The translations under genes and the position numbers were made by a program. A stretch of 41,956 nt of DNA from a virus, in IMG/VR virus record IMGVR_UViG_3300020185_000105, positions 1-41,956 of that record, one strand, 5' to 3'. The notes beneath the pieces were generated by a model. That model did no database searches. It worked only from the letters and a program-made list of their open reading frames with translations, and was not told the DNA's origin. Shown here piece by piece: positions 3,391-33,671 of the stretch. The number at the start of each line of letters is the position of its first letter. Within the stretch, counting starts at the first letter, position 1.

Positions 3391-4062
3391 CTACTTCTTG
3401 AGTTTTTGTGAAGTAATCCACTTCTTGGCCTTAGCATTATCTACAGGTGCCTGAGTGAATTTGGTTGCGTCACGGTATGCACGGACAGTCTCTTTCTGGT
3501 AATCCTTACCTTCAGAGTTATCCACTACTAGGAAGTTCTTCTTACCGAACATCGTCTGGAACTTACCAATATTTTGTTGTACCGATTTCCAATATTCTGT
3601 AACACCTTTAGCACCTAGTGTACGAGCACGTTGAGCATCACGAGAGATTGCAGTGTCAAGATCAGTGTTCACGAAAATCATTGCGACATCGTAACCTAGT
3701 TTCTTGAGTTCTTTTGCTTGGTCTGCAATCTTACTTGGGTCTTTACCAGTACCGTCAATGACCAGACCTAGACGACCTTTGATATACATTGACTGTTTAA
3801 TACCAGTAAGGTTCTTTGCCTTACCTCGAAGTTCTTGACCTTTCACGGAGAAGATGTTGTCTGGATTCATTTCCATCGATGCTTTCTTCATGGCGTTCTC
3901 GAACGCATCATCAGAGTTAACGACTTTATAACCCATAGAGGTTAGACCCGTCTTACCGACAATGAATGACTTACCAGAACCTGGTCCGCCTGCAAGGAAG
4001 ATTGCTTTGAAGATTGCTGGGTCGTTGACACCTTCATTTAAGAAGGACTTGAAAGTTTTCAT
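3391..4062 (-). CDS. Zeta-toxin-like P-loop kinase with apparent capsid-targeting sequence
   Basis: The 223-residue protein has a Walker A motif GGPGSGKS at residues 25-32, an acidic VVNSDDAF strand after it, the strand LVIDGTG, and a basic lid-like region (SRDAQRARTLG). This is the layout of zeta-toxin/polynucleotide-kinase-like P-loop enzymes. The first ten residues, MKTFKSFLNE, closely resemble the T4 capsid-targeting sequence of internal proteins (MKTYQEFIAE in T4). They end in L-N-E followed by G, which fits the gp21 protease rule (L/I)-x-E. I infer a protein packaged in the head, trimmed by gp21 and possibly ejected into the host. The substrate is unknown. Zeta toxins phosphorylate UDP-GlcNAc, but that cannot be assumed here. 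Confidence 0.7.
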   Translation of the reverse strand: MKTFKSFLNEGVNDPAIFKAIFLAGGPGSGKSFIVGKTGLTSMGYKVVNSDDAFENAMKKASMEMNPDNIFSVKGQELRGKAKNLTGIKQSMYIKGRLGLVIDGTGKDPSKIADQAKELKKLGYDVAMIFVNTDLDTAISRDAQRARTLGAKGVTEYWKSVQQNIGKFQTMFGKKNFLVVDNSEGKDYQKETVRAYRDATKFTQAPVDNAKAKKWITSQKLKK

Positions 4063-4063
4063 T

Positions 4064-4342
4064 CTACTTTTCCCAAATCTCTAGGGATGCTTCAATAAGA
4101 TCTGCCTTCTTAGTTGGTATACGACCTTTTGACTCACCTAATTTATTTTTGTTCTCTTTAACGTAACTCTTTAATTCAGGAACAGTCATTTTAGCAAAGG
4201 CCTTTCTTTGATCATTAAGTGATGGTCCACTTACTGGTGGAGTCGTTACTCCTCCTCCAGATTTGTCTTCATCTTTCTCATTTTTTATTACTATCCAAAC
4301 TACCAGTAAAGTAAATAGCATTCCTGCAAATGCATATTCCAT
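4064..4342 (-). CDS. Single-pass membrane protein with SAP/Rho-N-like C-terminal segment
   Basis: A membrane segment at about residues 4-20 (FAGMLFTLLVVWIVI) is followed by a Lys/Asp-rich stretch, a Gly/Pro linker and a helical C-terminus (MTVPELKSYVKENK...KKADLIEASLEIW). That C-terminus resembles SAP/HeH-type DNA- or protein-binding helices. The start is the ATG with GGAG 6 nt upstream. The longer reading from an upstream TTG would swallow that ribosome site. A late promoter lies 34 nt upstream, so the protein is probably made with the virion proteins. The function is unknown. A lysis accessory or membrane-anchored DNA-binding role is possible. Confidence 0.7.
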   Translation of the reverse strand: MEYAFAGMLFTLLVVWIVIKNEKDEDKSGGGVTTPPVSGPSLNDQRKAFAKMTVPELKSYVKENKNKLGESKGRIPTKKADLIEASLEIWEK

Positions 4343-4375
4343 ATTATTCTCCAAATATAAGTTGTGACTACAGTT

Positions 4376-4383
4376 TATTTATA
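4376..4383 (-). promoter_or_regulatory. T4-type late promoter of the membrane protein gene
   Basis: Exact TATAAATA on the minus strand, overlapping the 3' end of the SGNH-like gene and 34 nt from the downstream ATG. Confidence 0.7.
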
Positions 4384-29457: not shown

Positions 29458-30792
29458 TTATGAGTTTGTAACCATTAGGTTGTCAACTCGCATGATTCGG
29501 TAGTAAGTGTTCTTACCAGCAGAACTCTGTACACCTGCTCCACCGTTAGCATCTGTAACGAATGGGTTTGCAGCCATGCCATAACGAGTCTTGAAACCAA
29601 TCTTAGGTTGGAAATCATTCTCGCCAACTGCCTTAACCATTTGTAATGGAACATATGGGCAGTAGAATACACCTGCGTCATAAGCGTTAGAACCCTTATA
29701 ACCAACAGTGATGTAGTCGATAGTTGCGTATGGATCGATGTATACTTTCATCTTACCGTTTAGAGTACCAGCAAAAGTGTTACCAGTATCGTCTACTTGT
29801 AGACCAGCACCTACTTGATAGTCCAACTGACCAGAAGCAGCAAGTGCAGTAGCAACGTCTGAAGAACAGATTACGATGTTACCTTTACCACGACGAGTTG
29901 ACTTAGCAATCTCGTTTGCTTCACGATCTAATTGAATTACTAGACCTTTGAACTTCTCTGCTGACCATCGTCCGTCTGCATCAGCAGTTAGATCGAATAC
30001 GCCTTTAGCAGCGATTGATGCTTGTTGTGCACCTAGAACAGCTTGAGTGTTTACTGTACGAACTACTTCACGGTTGATTTCCGCTAGGATTTCAGTTGAA
30101 AGAATGTTCGCTAGTTCTGTTTCTGCGTCAAGACCGTGGATTGCTTTCAAGTCTTGTGCAAGTTCTAGAGAGTACTCTGCCTTCAATGCACGTGACTTAG
30201 CAACAACAGATTGCTTCTCGATTGAGAAACCCATTTCTGCGAAGTCTGGACCAGTGTTACCTAGAGATTCAGCAACAGAAGTGTTCATTGGTCGACCAGC
30301 AGCATCTAGTTCACGAGTTGATGCAGGGTCTACGTCAGCTGGATCGAATCCAGACATACCTGATGAATCACTAGTCTGTGATGAACCAGCAGAACCAGAG
30401 AATGCTGAGTTTGGTTCGTTTAGACCTAGTGCTTCGTCACCAGTCTGTGAATCGTAGTGTGACTTCATAGCAAAGATAAGACCAGTAGGTCCAGACATTG
30501 GTTGTACACCACATACGTCATATGCCATTAGGTTAGGCATTGCACGACGTACTAGTGAGATTAATACTGGATCCCAGTTTGCGATTGGTGCAGCACCACC
30601 GTGCTGTACGTTAGTTGGGGATTCAGATAGGAAACCAGCAGATGCTTGACGTTCTTCCATCATAGCACGTTCTTGGTTTTCTAGGATAGCAGCAGTAACT
30701 GCTTTACGGTGATGATCTTGGATCTTACCAGCAGATTCTTCGTTTAGTACTGGTGCCCACTTCTCGATCAATTGATCGTATGAATTGTTCAT
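29458..30792 (-). CDS. 23: Major capsid protein gp23
   Basis: It forms the hexamers of the prolate head. The N-terminal part (KWAPVLNEES..IQDHHRKAVTAAILENQE) resembles the T4 delta region. FLSE-S at residues 54-58 fits the gp21 cleavage rule, so maturation would remove 57 residues (65 in T4). The mature part begins near VRRAMPNLMAYDVCGVQPMSGPTGLIFAM, a strong gp23 signature. The length of 444 residues is shorter than T4 (521), as usual in marine relatives. No gene 24 vertex homologue follows. Confidence 0.96.
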   Translation of the reverse strand: MNNSYDQLIEKWAPVLNEESAGKIQDHHRKAVTAAILENQERAMMEERQASAGFLSESPTNVQHGGAAPIANWDPVLISLVRRAMPNLMAYDVCGVQPMSGPTGLIFAMKSHYDSQTGDEALGLNEPNSAFSGSAGSSQTSDSSGMSGFDPADVDPASTRELDAAGRPMNTSVAESLGNTGPDFAEMGFSIEKQSVVAKSRALKAEYSLELAQDLKAIHGLDAETELANILSTEILAEINREVVRTVNTQAVLGAQQASIAAKGVFDLTADADGRWSAEKFKGLVIQLDREANEIAKSTRRGKGNIVICSSDVATALAASGQLDYQVGAGLQVDDTGNTFAGTLNGKMKVYIDPYATIDYITVGYKGSNAYDAGVFYCPYVPLQMVKAVGENDFQPKIGFKTRYGMAANPFVTDANGGAGVQSSAGKNTYYRIMRVDNLMVTNS

Positions 30793-30803: not shown

Positions 30804-31850
30804 TTATTTCTTAGAGGTTTTTCTTAGAGCAGTGATGTAACCTTCCATAGAGGAAGATACTTCAACTTCTTCTTCAGCTTCTTCTGAAACTGATTCTTCG
30901 AGTTGCTCAGGGATTTCTTTTGAAAAGTATGACTCTTTCACAGTAGTTACTTTTGAAGTAAATGTTTCTTCACTTTCAAATTCTACTGTTTCAAGAAGGT
31001 CTTTTAACTTTTCCGCTTGGGTGTCTGCTAGGTCACGAGATGCTTCAGCAATGATTGAATCACGCTTATAAGTTTCTAGTTCTTCAGCAAGTTGAATTGC
31101 GTCACCAGTAGTTGAGTTTAGTTTTTCTTCTAACTCGTCTACTTGTGAAGATAATTCATCAACTAGGTCTACCTTAGACTCTGGAACGTCGATGTAAGAC
31201 TCTGTAAATACGTCTTTCAACTTTTCCATGAACCCTTCAGCAATTTCGGTACGTAGACCGGATTGAATTGCTAACTTGTTCTCTTCCATCCAAGATTCAA
31301 CAACATAGTTTAGGTAAGAATCGACTTTACCGACTAGGTCAGTTTTAATCGAATCGACTTCTTCAGCAAGTTCTTCAGCATATTGCTCTTCAAGACGTGT
31401 AACTTCTTCGGACAACTTTGTTTTAACAGCTGCTTCGAAAATTACTGATGTCTTTTCCTTGAACTCTTCTGATAGAGTTGCTTCACCGTCAACGATTGCT
31501 GCAAGTTCAGACTGTGTGTCTGTCTCTTCTGCAATAACGTCTTCTAGGTCAGTACCTTCCATCATTTTAGAATAGGCAGCCTGTAGGTCACCTTTTTTCA
31601 TTTTATTTAAGGACTGGTACATCGCATTGATCATACCTGCCTTAGTTTTTGGTAATGAAGCCTTAGAAGTTGCGTCGGCTGCTTTGTCCACTGATGCGAT
31701 TGACTCCGGCTCTGATACTGGTTGAGCGTCAGTCTTCGCACCCTTAGCTGCAGGAGCTTGTGCTTCTTCGAGAGTTTCCTCCACGATTTCGTTAGTTTCA
31801 ACATCTGTATCGCGGATTTCAACTTCGACTTCTTTATTAAGATCAGTCAT
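30804..31850 (-). CDS. 22: Prohead scaffolding core protein gp22
   Basis: Internal scaffold removed by gp21 during maturation. The protein is very acidic and helical, with the gp22 core pattern SVIFEAAVKTKLSEEVTRLEEQYAEEL, DLVGKVDSYLNYVVESWMEENKLAIQSGLRTEIAEGFMEKLKDVF. Its 348 residues exceed T4 (269), owing to an N-terminal Glu/Ala-rich extension and an acidic C-terminal stretch. Position between 21 and 23 is as in T4. Confidence 0.93.
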   Translation of the reverse strand: MTDLNKEVEVEIRDTDVETNEIVEETLEEAQAPAAKGAKTDAQPVSEPESIASVDKAADATSKASLPKTKAGMINAMYQSLNKMKKGDLQAAYSKMMEGTDLEDVIAEETDTQSELAAIVDGEATLSEEFKEKTSVIFEAAVKTKLSEEVTRLEEQYAEELAEEVDSIKTDLVGKVDSYLNYVVESWMEENKLAIQSGLRTEIAEGFMEKLKDVFTESYIDVPESKVDLVDELSSQVDELEEKLNSTTGDAIQLAEELETYKRDSIIAEASRDLADTQAEKLKDLLETVEFESEETFTSKVTTVKESYFSKEIPEQLEESVSEEAEEEVEVSSSMEGYITALRKTSKK

Positions 31851-31860
31851 AGATGACTCC

Positions 31861-32520
31861 TTATAGTTTAGATTTGATTAACGAGAGGAAATTCTTGAAC
31901 TCACGTATTTGCACTTCTGGACGATGTGCAATCGGTGCTTGCTTGATTTCAGTCTCTATCTCTTCAATGACTTGAGGTTGCAGAATTCCATTATTCCATA
32001 CCCAGTCGACACCTTCCATAATCCCATTAACGAAAGCTTCAGGTGCACTTGGATCCTGTACGATATCTACAGTATTAAGAATAAAGTCTTCTTTGACGTA
32101 CATGACGCCATTTTTGCTCTCAAGACTTCCCATACCACGAGTTGACACTCCTAGTTGGACACCACCTTCTAAGAGACCTTTTACGATCTTACCCATAGGA
32201 GTGTCTAATATTTGTGCCTTTCCGACCACATCATTACCTTCTAGTTTAAGGTCTGTGATGAGGTGCGAAACCTTGTCCAAGTTAACAGTCGGTCCTTCAG
32301 GGTGATTCAATTCACCTACGGCACGTTTCTTGCTAACTTGTTCTTCAACGTACTTGCCTACCGCAGACTCCATTATGGCCTTCGGGTAAACACGTCCGTT
32401 ACGATTCTTCTTGTCTGCTTGCGCAAATACACCTTCAATAATGTAATTCTTCTCACCATTATCTTTAGCTTCGACGATACACTGTACGTCGTTTTCTACG
32501 TATTCGCTAATCAGTTTCAT
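31861..32520 (-). CDS. 21: Prohead core protease gp21
   Basis: Serine protease that cuts scaffold, capsid and internal proteins at (L/I)-x-E. Features are IIEGVFAQADKKNRNGRVYPKAIM, GELNHPEGPTVNLDKVSHLI with the catalytic His, and LGVSTRGMGSL with the nucleophile Ser. The length of 219 residues matches T4 (212). Likely substrates in the window by sequence rule are gp23 (FLSE-S), the core protein upstream (LRE-A) and the P-loop kinase (LNE-G). Confidence 0.94.
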   Translation of the reverse strand: MKLISEYVENDVQCIVEAKDNGEKNYIIEGVFAQADKKNRNGRVYPKAIMESAVGKYVEEQVSKKRAVGELNHPEGPTVNLDKVSHLITDLKLEGNDVVGKAQILDTPMGKIVKGLLEGGVQLGVSTRGMGSLESKNGVMYVKEDFILNTVDIVQDPSAPEAFVNGIMEGVDWVWNNGILQPQVIEEIETEIKQAPIAHRPEVQIREFKNFLSLIKSKL

Positions 32521-32521
32521 T

Positions 32522-32719
32522 TTATTTTCCTAAGTCTTTAAGGACTTGTTTTGCGGTTGATTCCGCTTCTTTCTGAGACTTAAACGTGTCGACAGAATCT
32601 CCATCTATAGACAGATGAAATCCCTTACTAGTCTTTGTGATAACGACAGGATACTTGGACATCTTCTTGTTGAAGACGACCTTATCTTTAGCTTCCCGTA
32701 AATTCTTAAATGTTTTCAC
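32522..32719 (-). CDS. Small prohead core protein with capsid-targeting sequence (gene 68 position)
   Basis: The 65-residue basic protein starts at a GTG, 8 nt after GAGG. The N-terminus MKTFKNLREA resembles the capsid-targeting sequence and has L-R-E-A as a gp21 site. The remainder (YPVVITKTSKGFHLSIDGDSVDTFKSQKEAESTAKQVLKDLG) resembles DUF2188-type small folds. Two late promoters lie directly upstream. Position fits T4 gene 68 but the sequence does not clearly match it. The mature protein may stay in the head with DNA. Confidence 0.65.
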   Translation of the reverse strand: MKTFKNLREAKDKVVFNKKMSKYPVVITKTSKGFHLSIDGDSVDTFKSQKEAESTAKQVLKDLGK

Positions 32720-32739: not shown

Positions 32740-32763
32740 TATTTATACAAAAAAGTATTTATA
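32740..32763 (-). promoter_or_regulatory. Tandem late promoters of the head operon (32740-32747 and 32756-32763)
   Basis: Two exact TATAAATA boxes 16 bp apart on the minus strand, the nearer 21 nt before the GTG. They would drive the small core gene, 21, 22 and 23, whose products are needed in large amount. Confidence 0.85.
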
Positions 32764-32779
32764 ACGAAAATTACTTATG

Positions 32780-33421
32780 TTATCGATATAATTTCTTTGT
32801 ACTGCCCCATTGTTGGTCTGCATATATTTTACCCACACCCATATATGGAGTCGACCTTATCGAATAATGTTTTGGTATAAAATAGTATGATGGCCAGATG
32901 GTTAACTTATTTTTTTCTGCATCTGGAACAAACTGTGATAACCAAAAGTTTCCTGTAGACATCCAAGGTCTAGGGTCCAACTCATCCGTCGTTAATTTGT
33001 GTAAACTATCTATCAACATCTTAACAAAGACATTTCCAGCATTACATGCTTGCACAGGTGATATCCAATTGGGTGCTAAGTGTACATCTCGGTCATTTTC
33101 AAAAACCGTATATGCCCAGTCTGATGGACTTGTAAACAGTTCATCTGTGTTTTCATAACACTTAGAATCTGCTGGAGGTAAAAACCCACCTTTCTCAAAG
33201 AGCAATTCATATCGTATCAAGTCAGCAACACCTGCCCATACACGATCTTTGTAATACTTGTCTATAAGATGTTGATTATGCCACTTACGTGACTTTAACA
33301 TCTCATCGGTGAATACCATGTATTCCCAATCTGGGTGTTTCTCTTTCCAAGTATCCATCCACTGGGTAGGTGCCTTATGAGGACCAATCCAGATATGAGT
33401 CATCTTTTTTACAAGATTCAT
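32780..33421 (-). CDS. OCH1-like sugar transferase (DXD-type family) with altered metal site
   Basis: The 213-residue protein follows the Gly_transf_sug pattern: HIWIGPHKAPTQWMDTWKEKHPDWEY, then GVADLIRYELLFEKGGF, and WMSTGNFWLSQF later. In active members GG is followed by hydrophobic residues and D-x-D. Here the residues are LPPADS (81-86), so the first Asp is Pro. It may be inactive, use another acid, or have a new binding mode. It sits inside the head-gene operon between 67-like and 68-like genes. That suggests insertion and late expression. Confidence 0.68.
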   Translation of the reverse strand: MNLVKKMTHIWIGPHKAPTQWMDTWKEKHPDWEYMVFTDEMLKSRKWHNQHLIDKYYKDRVWAGVADLIRYELLFEKGGFLPPADSKCYENTDELFTSPSDWAYTVFENDRDVHLAPNWISPVQACNAGNVFVKMLIDSLHKLTTDELDPRPWMSTGNFWLSQFVPDAEKNKLTIWPSYYFIPKHYSIRSTPYMGVGKIYADQQWGSTKKLYR

Positions 33422-33422
33422 C

Positions 33423-33671
33423 TCAATCTACATTCTCTTCCTGATCTATGACTTGAGCAAGTTCAGCATCTAAATCTTCATCGTCGATACTAACATCTTC
33501 ACTCTCCACCCCATTAAAAATGCTGTCTGCAACCGCAACTTTCTCCGCATCTAGTGACTGTTGTAATTTATCACCTAAGATGCCATTAAATAGTTTCTCT
33601 GCATCATTATAGTCTTCACCTTGTAAGGCATTGACAAAATCTAATGTTGGGTTTGCTTCTACTTCACTCAT
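33423..33671 (-). CDS. 67: Acidic prohead core protein gp67-like
   Basis: The 82-residue acidic protein (LDFVNALQGEDYNDAEKLFNGILGDKLQQSLDAEKVAVADSIF, then an Asp/Glu tail) has the pattern of T4 gp67-type core proteins and lies directly after the portal gene as in T4. GAGG precedes the ATG. It would be degraded by gp21 during head maturation. Confidence 0.75.
   Translation of the reverse strand: MSEVEANPTLDFVNALQGEDYNDAEKLFNGILGDKLQQSLDAEKVAVADSIFNGVESEDVSIDDEDLDAELAQVIDQEENVD

Follow-up and report, generated by a model that had tools for sequence, protein, structure and literature searches.

In phage T4, the proteins that carry a short N-terminal leader, namely the internal proteins (IPs) and the ADP-ribosyltransferase Alt, remain in the head, while the core proteins gp22, gp67 and gp68 are degraded (PMC5694885), and this leader-bearing cargo is ejected (PMC3012670; further T4 literature used here is PMC9391042 and PMC12373910). 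The leaders, taken from the T4 record, read MKTYQEFIAE in IPII and IPIII and begin with MKTFKEFT in IPI, and the T4 protein gp61.1 starts with MKTFKEFIKE. Here we describe the gene of a P-loop kinase in a marine T4-like phage represented by IMG/VR record IMGVR_UViG_3300020185_000105 (the window, by which we mean this whole stretch of 41,956 bases). The leader of this small kinase, MKTFKSFLNE, resembles a detachable address label for loading into the head, so that phage particles probably contain the enzyme and bring it into the next cell together with the DNA. A head-packaged cargo kinase, trimmed by the prohead protease and leaving with the DNA, is the best explanation of our results, and we consider it likely.

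The N-terminus of the kinase reads MKTFKSFLNEGVNDP, that is MKTFKSFLNE/GVNDP (the slash marks the predicted cut), and the complete protein, MKTFKSFLNE-GVNDPAIFKAIFLAGGPGSGKS..., has 223 residues. The leader is identical to that of gp61.1 at 7 of 10 positions, to that of IPI at 6 and to those of IPII and IPIII at 5. By Monte Carlo simulation, a 7/10 match to gp61.1 has a chance of 2e-5 per N-terminus, or about 0.001 over the 49 open reading frames (ORFs) of the window, and all the remaining ORFs reach at most 5/10; the one with 5/10 is the head-operon protein encoded at 32522-32719. The kinase therefore carries an N-terminal leader of T4 type, in the range of 10-20 residues. The first-pass annotation had placed a kinase ORF starting with MKTFKSFLNE at 3391-4062, had likened its start to the T4 capsid-targeting sequence, had read FLNE/G as a site for the gp21 protease, which cuts after (L/I)-x-E, and had pointed to a second protein in the head operon beginning with (M)KTFKNLREA. 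These sequence features are borne out, and both genes lie on the minus strand, which had not been stated for the kinase. As a separate observation, T4 gp61.1 (T4 genome 18966-19130) has a near-perfect targeting leader and lies beside an anti-toxin island; judged by its start, it is perhaps an internal protein that has gone unrecognised.

The cleavage-site rule was examined in the relatives of the kinase. Among cultured phages these are found in the Melnitz phages (50% identity), HTVC008M (45%) and the Agrobacterium jumbo phage Atu_ph07 (42%), and at about 26% identity in Straboviridae of Klebsiella, Aeromonas and Cronobacter; from uncultured virus contigs, 80 of 578 stretches encoding a relative were kept. 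The N-termini read MKTFAELQE/G in the Melnitz phages, MIPFILKE/G in HTVC008M, MKSFKQFTESTLTE/A and MKTFREFVKLEE in the Straboviridae, and an internal VTE/G in Atu_ph07. The residue preceding the first Gly of the kinase (P1) is Glu in 83 of 83 distinct stand-alone homologues, with a hydrophobic residue at P3 in every one (Leu 50, Ile 22, Met 6, Phe 3, Val 2) and P2 free; as far as sequence can tell, this is the (L/I)-x-E rule of T4 gp21. The leader varies from 8 to 18 residues, and 64 of 72 unique leaders fit the pattern M-x(1-3)-[FYWL]-x-x-hydrophobic. Mean pairwise identity is 32% in the leader vs 59% in the kinase, and 28% in the leader where the domains are 50-60% identical. The pattern survives although the leader changes more quickly than the kinase, and the leader is therefore maintained separately from the kinase, a separation that the first-pass annotation had proposed to look for by aligning N-termini. 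In support of its modularity, the same leader type is present on unrelated proteins of T4 and of the cyanophage S-CREM2.

The same annotation had held that homologues with this N-terminus in non-phage genomes would speak against packaging. Bacterial and archaeal assemblies gave 23 matches, nearly all on short contigs of metagenome-assembled genomes, several of which carry T4-like genes. Contigs G017:C28 and G009:C116 read as phage, because both hold the kinase together with gp23; this argument against packaging is therefore not borne out, the origin of the remaining matches being unsettled. One long relative (contig G001, 27518-28122, equal to L048:7518-8122) encodes two small proteins that start with MKSFKTHLEE and MKKFKKYIDE, and these are further candidates for packaged cargo.

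The phage that carries the kinase also encodes the protease and core protein that the proposed processing would need, among T4-like head genes for a portal, a gp67-like protein, a protease of family S77, a gp22-like scaffold and gp23. In its gp23, FLSE/S aligns with the T4 gp23 processing site FLTE/A and is of the same type as FLNE/G in the kinase. The small protein with the second leader is encoded directly upstream of the protease, as it is in two long relatives, and probably belongs to the prohead core, with a leader like that of the kinase. The motif TATAAATA, a T4-type late promoter, has 10 occurrences on the coding strand of the window and none on the opposite strand, against an expectation of about 1.2. 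It precedes the head operons as well as the unit of two genes in which the kinase comes last. Within 600 nucleotides upstream of the kinase it is found in 40 of 82 relatives, many times at a distance of 31-42 nucleotides, against a background of about 0.11 per 600 nucleotides; we give no p value for this count because related sequences are not independent. These promoters suggest late expression of the kinase.

Next, we calibrated the leader against the proteome of CsCl-purified S-CREM2 virions (OR473000), which lists 52 proteins detected by mass spectrometry (MS) (PMC10665884, Table 3). A pattern built from the leaders of T4 and the kinase family, whose regular expressions were fixed after the leaders of the MS-listed proteins had been seen, picks 5 of the 219 S-CREM2 proteins, 5/5 of which were detected by MS (Fisher p=0.0006). 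They are a SAM hydrolase (MKDFDSFLEE), gp13 (MKDLHSFLTE), an APH/ChoK-like kinase (MKRFDAFLTE), gp136 (MQTFSMFFSE) and a cytidylyltransferase (MKNFSSFLTE). A loose pattern, [LIVMF]xE anywhere near the start, had no predictive value (7/20 in the MS list, p=0.17), and for this reason the stricter one alone was used. T4-type leaders would explain the presence of these enzymes in virions, and they argue for cargo rather than contamination. Note that a sixth MS-listed protein, Cas9-like, has LRFASFMAEA at residues 17-26; the leader-bearing virion proteins of S-CREM2 (L083/L085) are gp6, gp12, gp13, gp14, gp136 and gp154.

These results bear on whether the kinase is instead an ordinary cytoplasmic late enzyme of nucleotide or RNA metabolism, whose N-terminus belongs to the fold or has another binding partner and resembles a leader by coincidence. 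We regard this as quite unlikely. The invariant pair Glu10-Gly11 could be structural, and the location of the kinase gene is not conserved between phages, as such an enzyme would allow. However, the leader changes in length and sequence while keeping the targeting pattern with the protease rule, a [LIV]xE junction also separates the domains of fused relatives, and in S-CREM2 this type of leader singles out virion proteins. In addition, the AlphaFold model of the kinase (mean predicted local distance difference test score, pLDDT, 86.6) has most of its chain at 80-95, but residues 1-10 form a short helix of low confidence (mean pLDDT 54), which apart from short loops is the only such stretch. 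Several points do weigh against packaging and ejection, and the first of them favours the cytoplasmic enzyme: direct virion evidence is absent, a virion proteome existing for neither the window phage nor a close relative. The S-CREM2 calibration set is small, five proteins from one phage, and its authors allow for co-purified contaminants among the MS hits, leaving cargo vs contamination undecided (PMC10665884). HTVC008M retains just a minimal leader, MIPFILKE/G, and the Atu_ph07 homologue, discussed below, is unconfirmed among the MS-detected proteins of that phage, so we do not claim it as detected. Finally, ejection as opposed to retention in the head is drawn from T4 only.

Weighing all this, we propose the following route. 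The kinase would be made late, and its first ten or so residues, serving as a capsid-targeting sequence of T4 type, would dock it into the prohead core. The gp21-type protease would then cut after Glu10 (FLNE/G), releasing inside the head a free P-loop kinase that begins at Gly11. The mature kinase would exit with the DNA into the next cell and phosphorylate a small-molecule or RNA target there before the expression of any phage gene begins. That the kinase is packaged and trimmed by the route of the T4 internal proteins is, we infer, likely; ejection with the DNA is probable by analogy with T4, at somewhat lower certainty. Of the first-pass proposal of a packaged and injected kinase, capsid targeting and gp21-type cleavage are well supported, by the leader, the 83/83 junction, the independence of leader and domain, the S77 protease, the late promoter and S-CREM2.

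The kinase looks active, with its ATP-binding and catalytic residues conserved. Lys31, Asp51 and Arg145 are invariant in the stand-alone family and align with T4 polynucleotide kinase, and catalysis is therefore under selection there. The Pfam family Zeta_toxin matches residues 19-151 (7e-10; 39.1 bits vs a curated cut-off of 22.3), with AAA_33 as a second match (1e-8). Searches of the PDB gave adenylate kinase, polynucleotide kinase and zeta toxin at similar weak levels, as well as a similarly weak match to seryl-tRNA(Sec) kinase over nearly the full length, and Foldseek returned adenylate kinases, polynucleotide kinase, zeta toxin and PezT. Two assignments were rejected: T4 polynucleotide kinase family membership, since the Arg position of the D-x-x-R acceptor motif is Phe54, and adenylate kinase identity (TIGR01360, 17.8 bits vs a cut-off of 284).

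The first-pass annotation called the enzyme zeta-toxin-like, and a true zeta-type toxin, injected to phosphorylate UDP-activated amino sugars and block cell-wall synthesis in the new host, would agree with the Pfam score and with the zeta and PezT matches. We consider it very improbable. The matches to adenylate kinase and polynucleotide kinase are just as good, family searches of both neighbouring genes recognised no epsilon/PezA-type antitoxin, evidence of toxicity did not turn up either, and a lytic phage would be harmed if cell-wall synthesis were blocked as soon as infection begins. Because the antitoxin is unrecognised and other kinases are equally close, we do not draw the conclusion of a zeta toxin: the fold and the P-loop active site stand, the toxin role is not adopted, and the name should describe the fold family only.

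The kinase is linked to a second enzyme. A CTP_transf_like domain (phrog_395/3041), of the family of the MS-detected S-CREM2 cytidylyltransferase, is fused N-terminally to the kinase in several contigs, and in HTVC008M the cytidylyltransferase and kinase genes overlap by 4 nucleotides. The fusions have a targeting-like leader at their N-terminus (e.g. MIKGFKQYNEE) and an interdomain [LIV]-x-E site, V/L-E-E/G. Nine stretches (L134, L135, L138, L139, L143, L145, L149, L153 and L157) encode polyproteins of 600-1270 residues with a CTP_transf_like-type domain and an intact kinase; V/L-E-E/G precedes the kinase, and several also contain DUF5824 (PF19141). In a group of more distant fusions (L033-L038), neither the Walker Ser nor the catalytic-site Asp residues of the kinase remain (GSGKD, NSVQAF, INGPADD), but the interdomain LHE/INE site is kept; with the kinase half degraded, activity is therefore not needed everywhere. 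Cytidylyltransferases or NMNATs have been found repeatedly in cyanophage virions (Sullivan et al., PMC3037559), and S-SCSM1 virions also contain an NMNAT (PMC9602691).

These fusions are relevant to the possibility that the kinase is packaged and cleaved but has its role in assembly, as part of the prohead core or of maturation, rather than as an ejected effector. Their persistence despite the lost Walker Ser/Thr and catalytic Asp is what a structural role would allow, and the other protein of the window with such a leader is encoded in the head operon, in the gp68 position. Against this, the three catalytic residues are invariant in the stand-alone family, and in T4 it is gp22, gp67 and gp68 that are degraded, whereas the IPs and Alt stay in the head (PMC5694885) and are ejected (PMC3012670). 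An assembly role is therefore rather unlikely, and the ejected cargo kinase remains our preferred reading. One refinement of it, not exclusive of it, is that the kinase and a co-packaged cytidylyltransferase-like enzyme form a NadR-like two-step salvage module (kinase plus adenylyltransferase), supplying NAD or another cofactor at entry, e.g. against NAD-depleting defences. We find this doubtful: in all searches run the kinase falls outside the ribosylnicotinamide-kinase family, the nucleotidyltransferase domain may use another substrate, and the active site of the kinase is degraded in one fused lineage.

The Atu_ph07 homologue, AUZ94865, corresponds to gp53 (the numbering is fixed by gp18 = AUZ94830), and its gene lies inside the virion-protein cluster of coding sequences 31-76, 29 of whose 46 products were detected by MS (PMC6102473). 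The start of gp53, of the type MKWNDLNE, is common to a tandem array of about nine paralogues, mostly of some 255 residues, at 39484-50000 (L046), all of which begin with M[KR]W..L[TNI]E. The array contains divergent domains with YRG and S-x-x-C-[ST]-[ST] that look ADP-ribosyltransferase-like by eye and have no Pfam match; possibly it is an array of packaged effectors like T4 Alt.

The features of the window are collected in Table 1. The gene upstream of the kinase forms one transcription unit with it, and its product has, by eye, a hydrophobic N-terminal segment and a SAP-like C-terminus; family searches gave no match for it. Downstream of the kinase lies a cell-wall hydrolase gene (Pfam). 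A partial GajA match (PADLOC, 0.001) was taken as chance, and a weak match to phrog_16619, 'minor head protein' (6.6e-5), was set aside and not counted as evidence. In the head operon, a glycosyltransferase gene (Gly_transf_sug, 32780-33421) is inserted between the gp67-like gene and the gene in the gp68 position.

Table 1. Coordinates of the kinase, its sequence elements and the head genes in the window
Feature	Position	Strand	Details	Source
P-loop kinase ORF	3391..4062 (4062→3391)	minus	223 residues; Zeta_toxin/AAA_33 superfamily	Pfam, AlphaFold, Foldseek
Capsid-targeting-like leader MKTFKSFLNE	4033..4062	minus	codons 1-10; predicted prohead-protease cut after Glu10	
Walker A GGPGSGKS	3967..3990	minus	residues 25-32	
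Asp51	3910..3912	minus	invariant; aligns with first Asp of NRDDYR motif, T4 polynucleotide kinase	
Upstream gene	4064..4354	minus	one transcription unit with kinase; likely start ATG 4342	
T4-type late promoter TATAAATA	4376..4383	minus	ahead of two-gene unit ending with kinase	
gp23 major capsid protein	29458..30792	minus		Pfam
gp22-type scaffold/core protein	30804..31850	minus	T4_CASP	Pfam 2e-65
gp21-type prohead protease	31861..32520	minus	Peptidase_S77	Pfam 4e-40
Small protein (M)KTFKNLRE/A	32522..32719	minus	65 residues; GTG start; gp68 position	
Two tandem late promoters TATAAATA	32740..32763	minus	before gp68/21/22/23 operon, just upstream of small-protein gene	
gp67-like prohead core protein	33423..33671	minus		phrog_1064 prohead, 1.6e-5

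Metabolic enzymes turn up again and again in virion proteomes of marine T4-like phages, and authors have been unable to tell whether they are cargo or contamination (PMC10665884). The leader rule is a test at the level of sequence, and given the 5/5 agreement in S-CREM2, packaged effectors could therefore be listed from genomes alone, including those of uncultured phages. For the kinase it predicts precisely where the mature protein starts, at Gly11, and that delivery comes before gene expression. If the prohead protease does cut a polyprotein into separate enzymes within the head, this would be a new route of effector delivery. Tentatively, and with confidence well short of that in the kinase itself, there could be a widespread system of head-packaged enzymes in marine T4-like and related jumbo phages, in which a P-loop kinase and an NMNAT-like nucleotidyltransferase, on separate leaders or in a protease-cut polyprotein, reset the nucleotide or cofactor metabolism of the host or disarm its defences before expression begins.

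Finally, the kinase is a variation on the known T4 internal proteins. It shares with IPI, IPII, IPIII and the uncharacterised gp61.1 a leader of the same pattern (MKTYQEFIAE/A and MKTFKEFIKE vs MKTFKSFLNE/G), modular on unrelated cargo, and a gp21-type cut after [LI]-x-E, predicted for the kinase. The IPs are packaged, small inhibitors of Type IV restriction (PMC12373910), whereas the cargo of the window is a P-loop kinase, conserved and with its active site intact, whose packaging is predicted from sequence alone. Like T4 Alt, which is leader-targeted, cleaved and ejected with the DNA (all predicted for the kinase), it is an enzyme and not an inhibitor; Alt, however, is an ADP-ribosyltransferase with the different leader MELITE/L. 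In Atu_ph07 gp53, a 42% identical kinase module is likewise preceded by a cut-type site, VTE/G, but within a multidomain protein of 778 residues that has a different N-terminal domain and a leader of its own, MKWNDLNE/A, compared with 223 residues in the window. Zeta toxin, PezT and T4 polynucleotide kinase belong to the same P-loop kinase superfamily, and the Walker A, invariant Asp and lid Arg of the T4 enzyme align with ours; its acceptor-side Arg (of NRDDYR) is replaced by Phe54, and the leader is predicted to target the window kinase to the head. The virion enzymes of cyanophages, including the S-SCSM1 NMNAT, are likewise non-structural enzymes in marine T4-like virions, and those of S-CREM2 (the APH/ChoK-like kinase, the cytidylyltransferase and the SAM hydrolase) carry the same leader type, which the available text of its authors does not mention, although the S-CREM2 kinase has the APH/ChoK fold and that of the window the P-loop fold.
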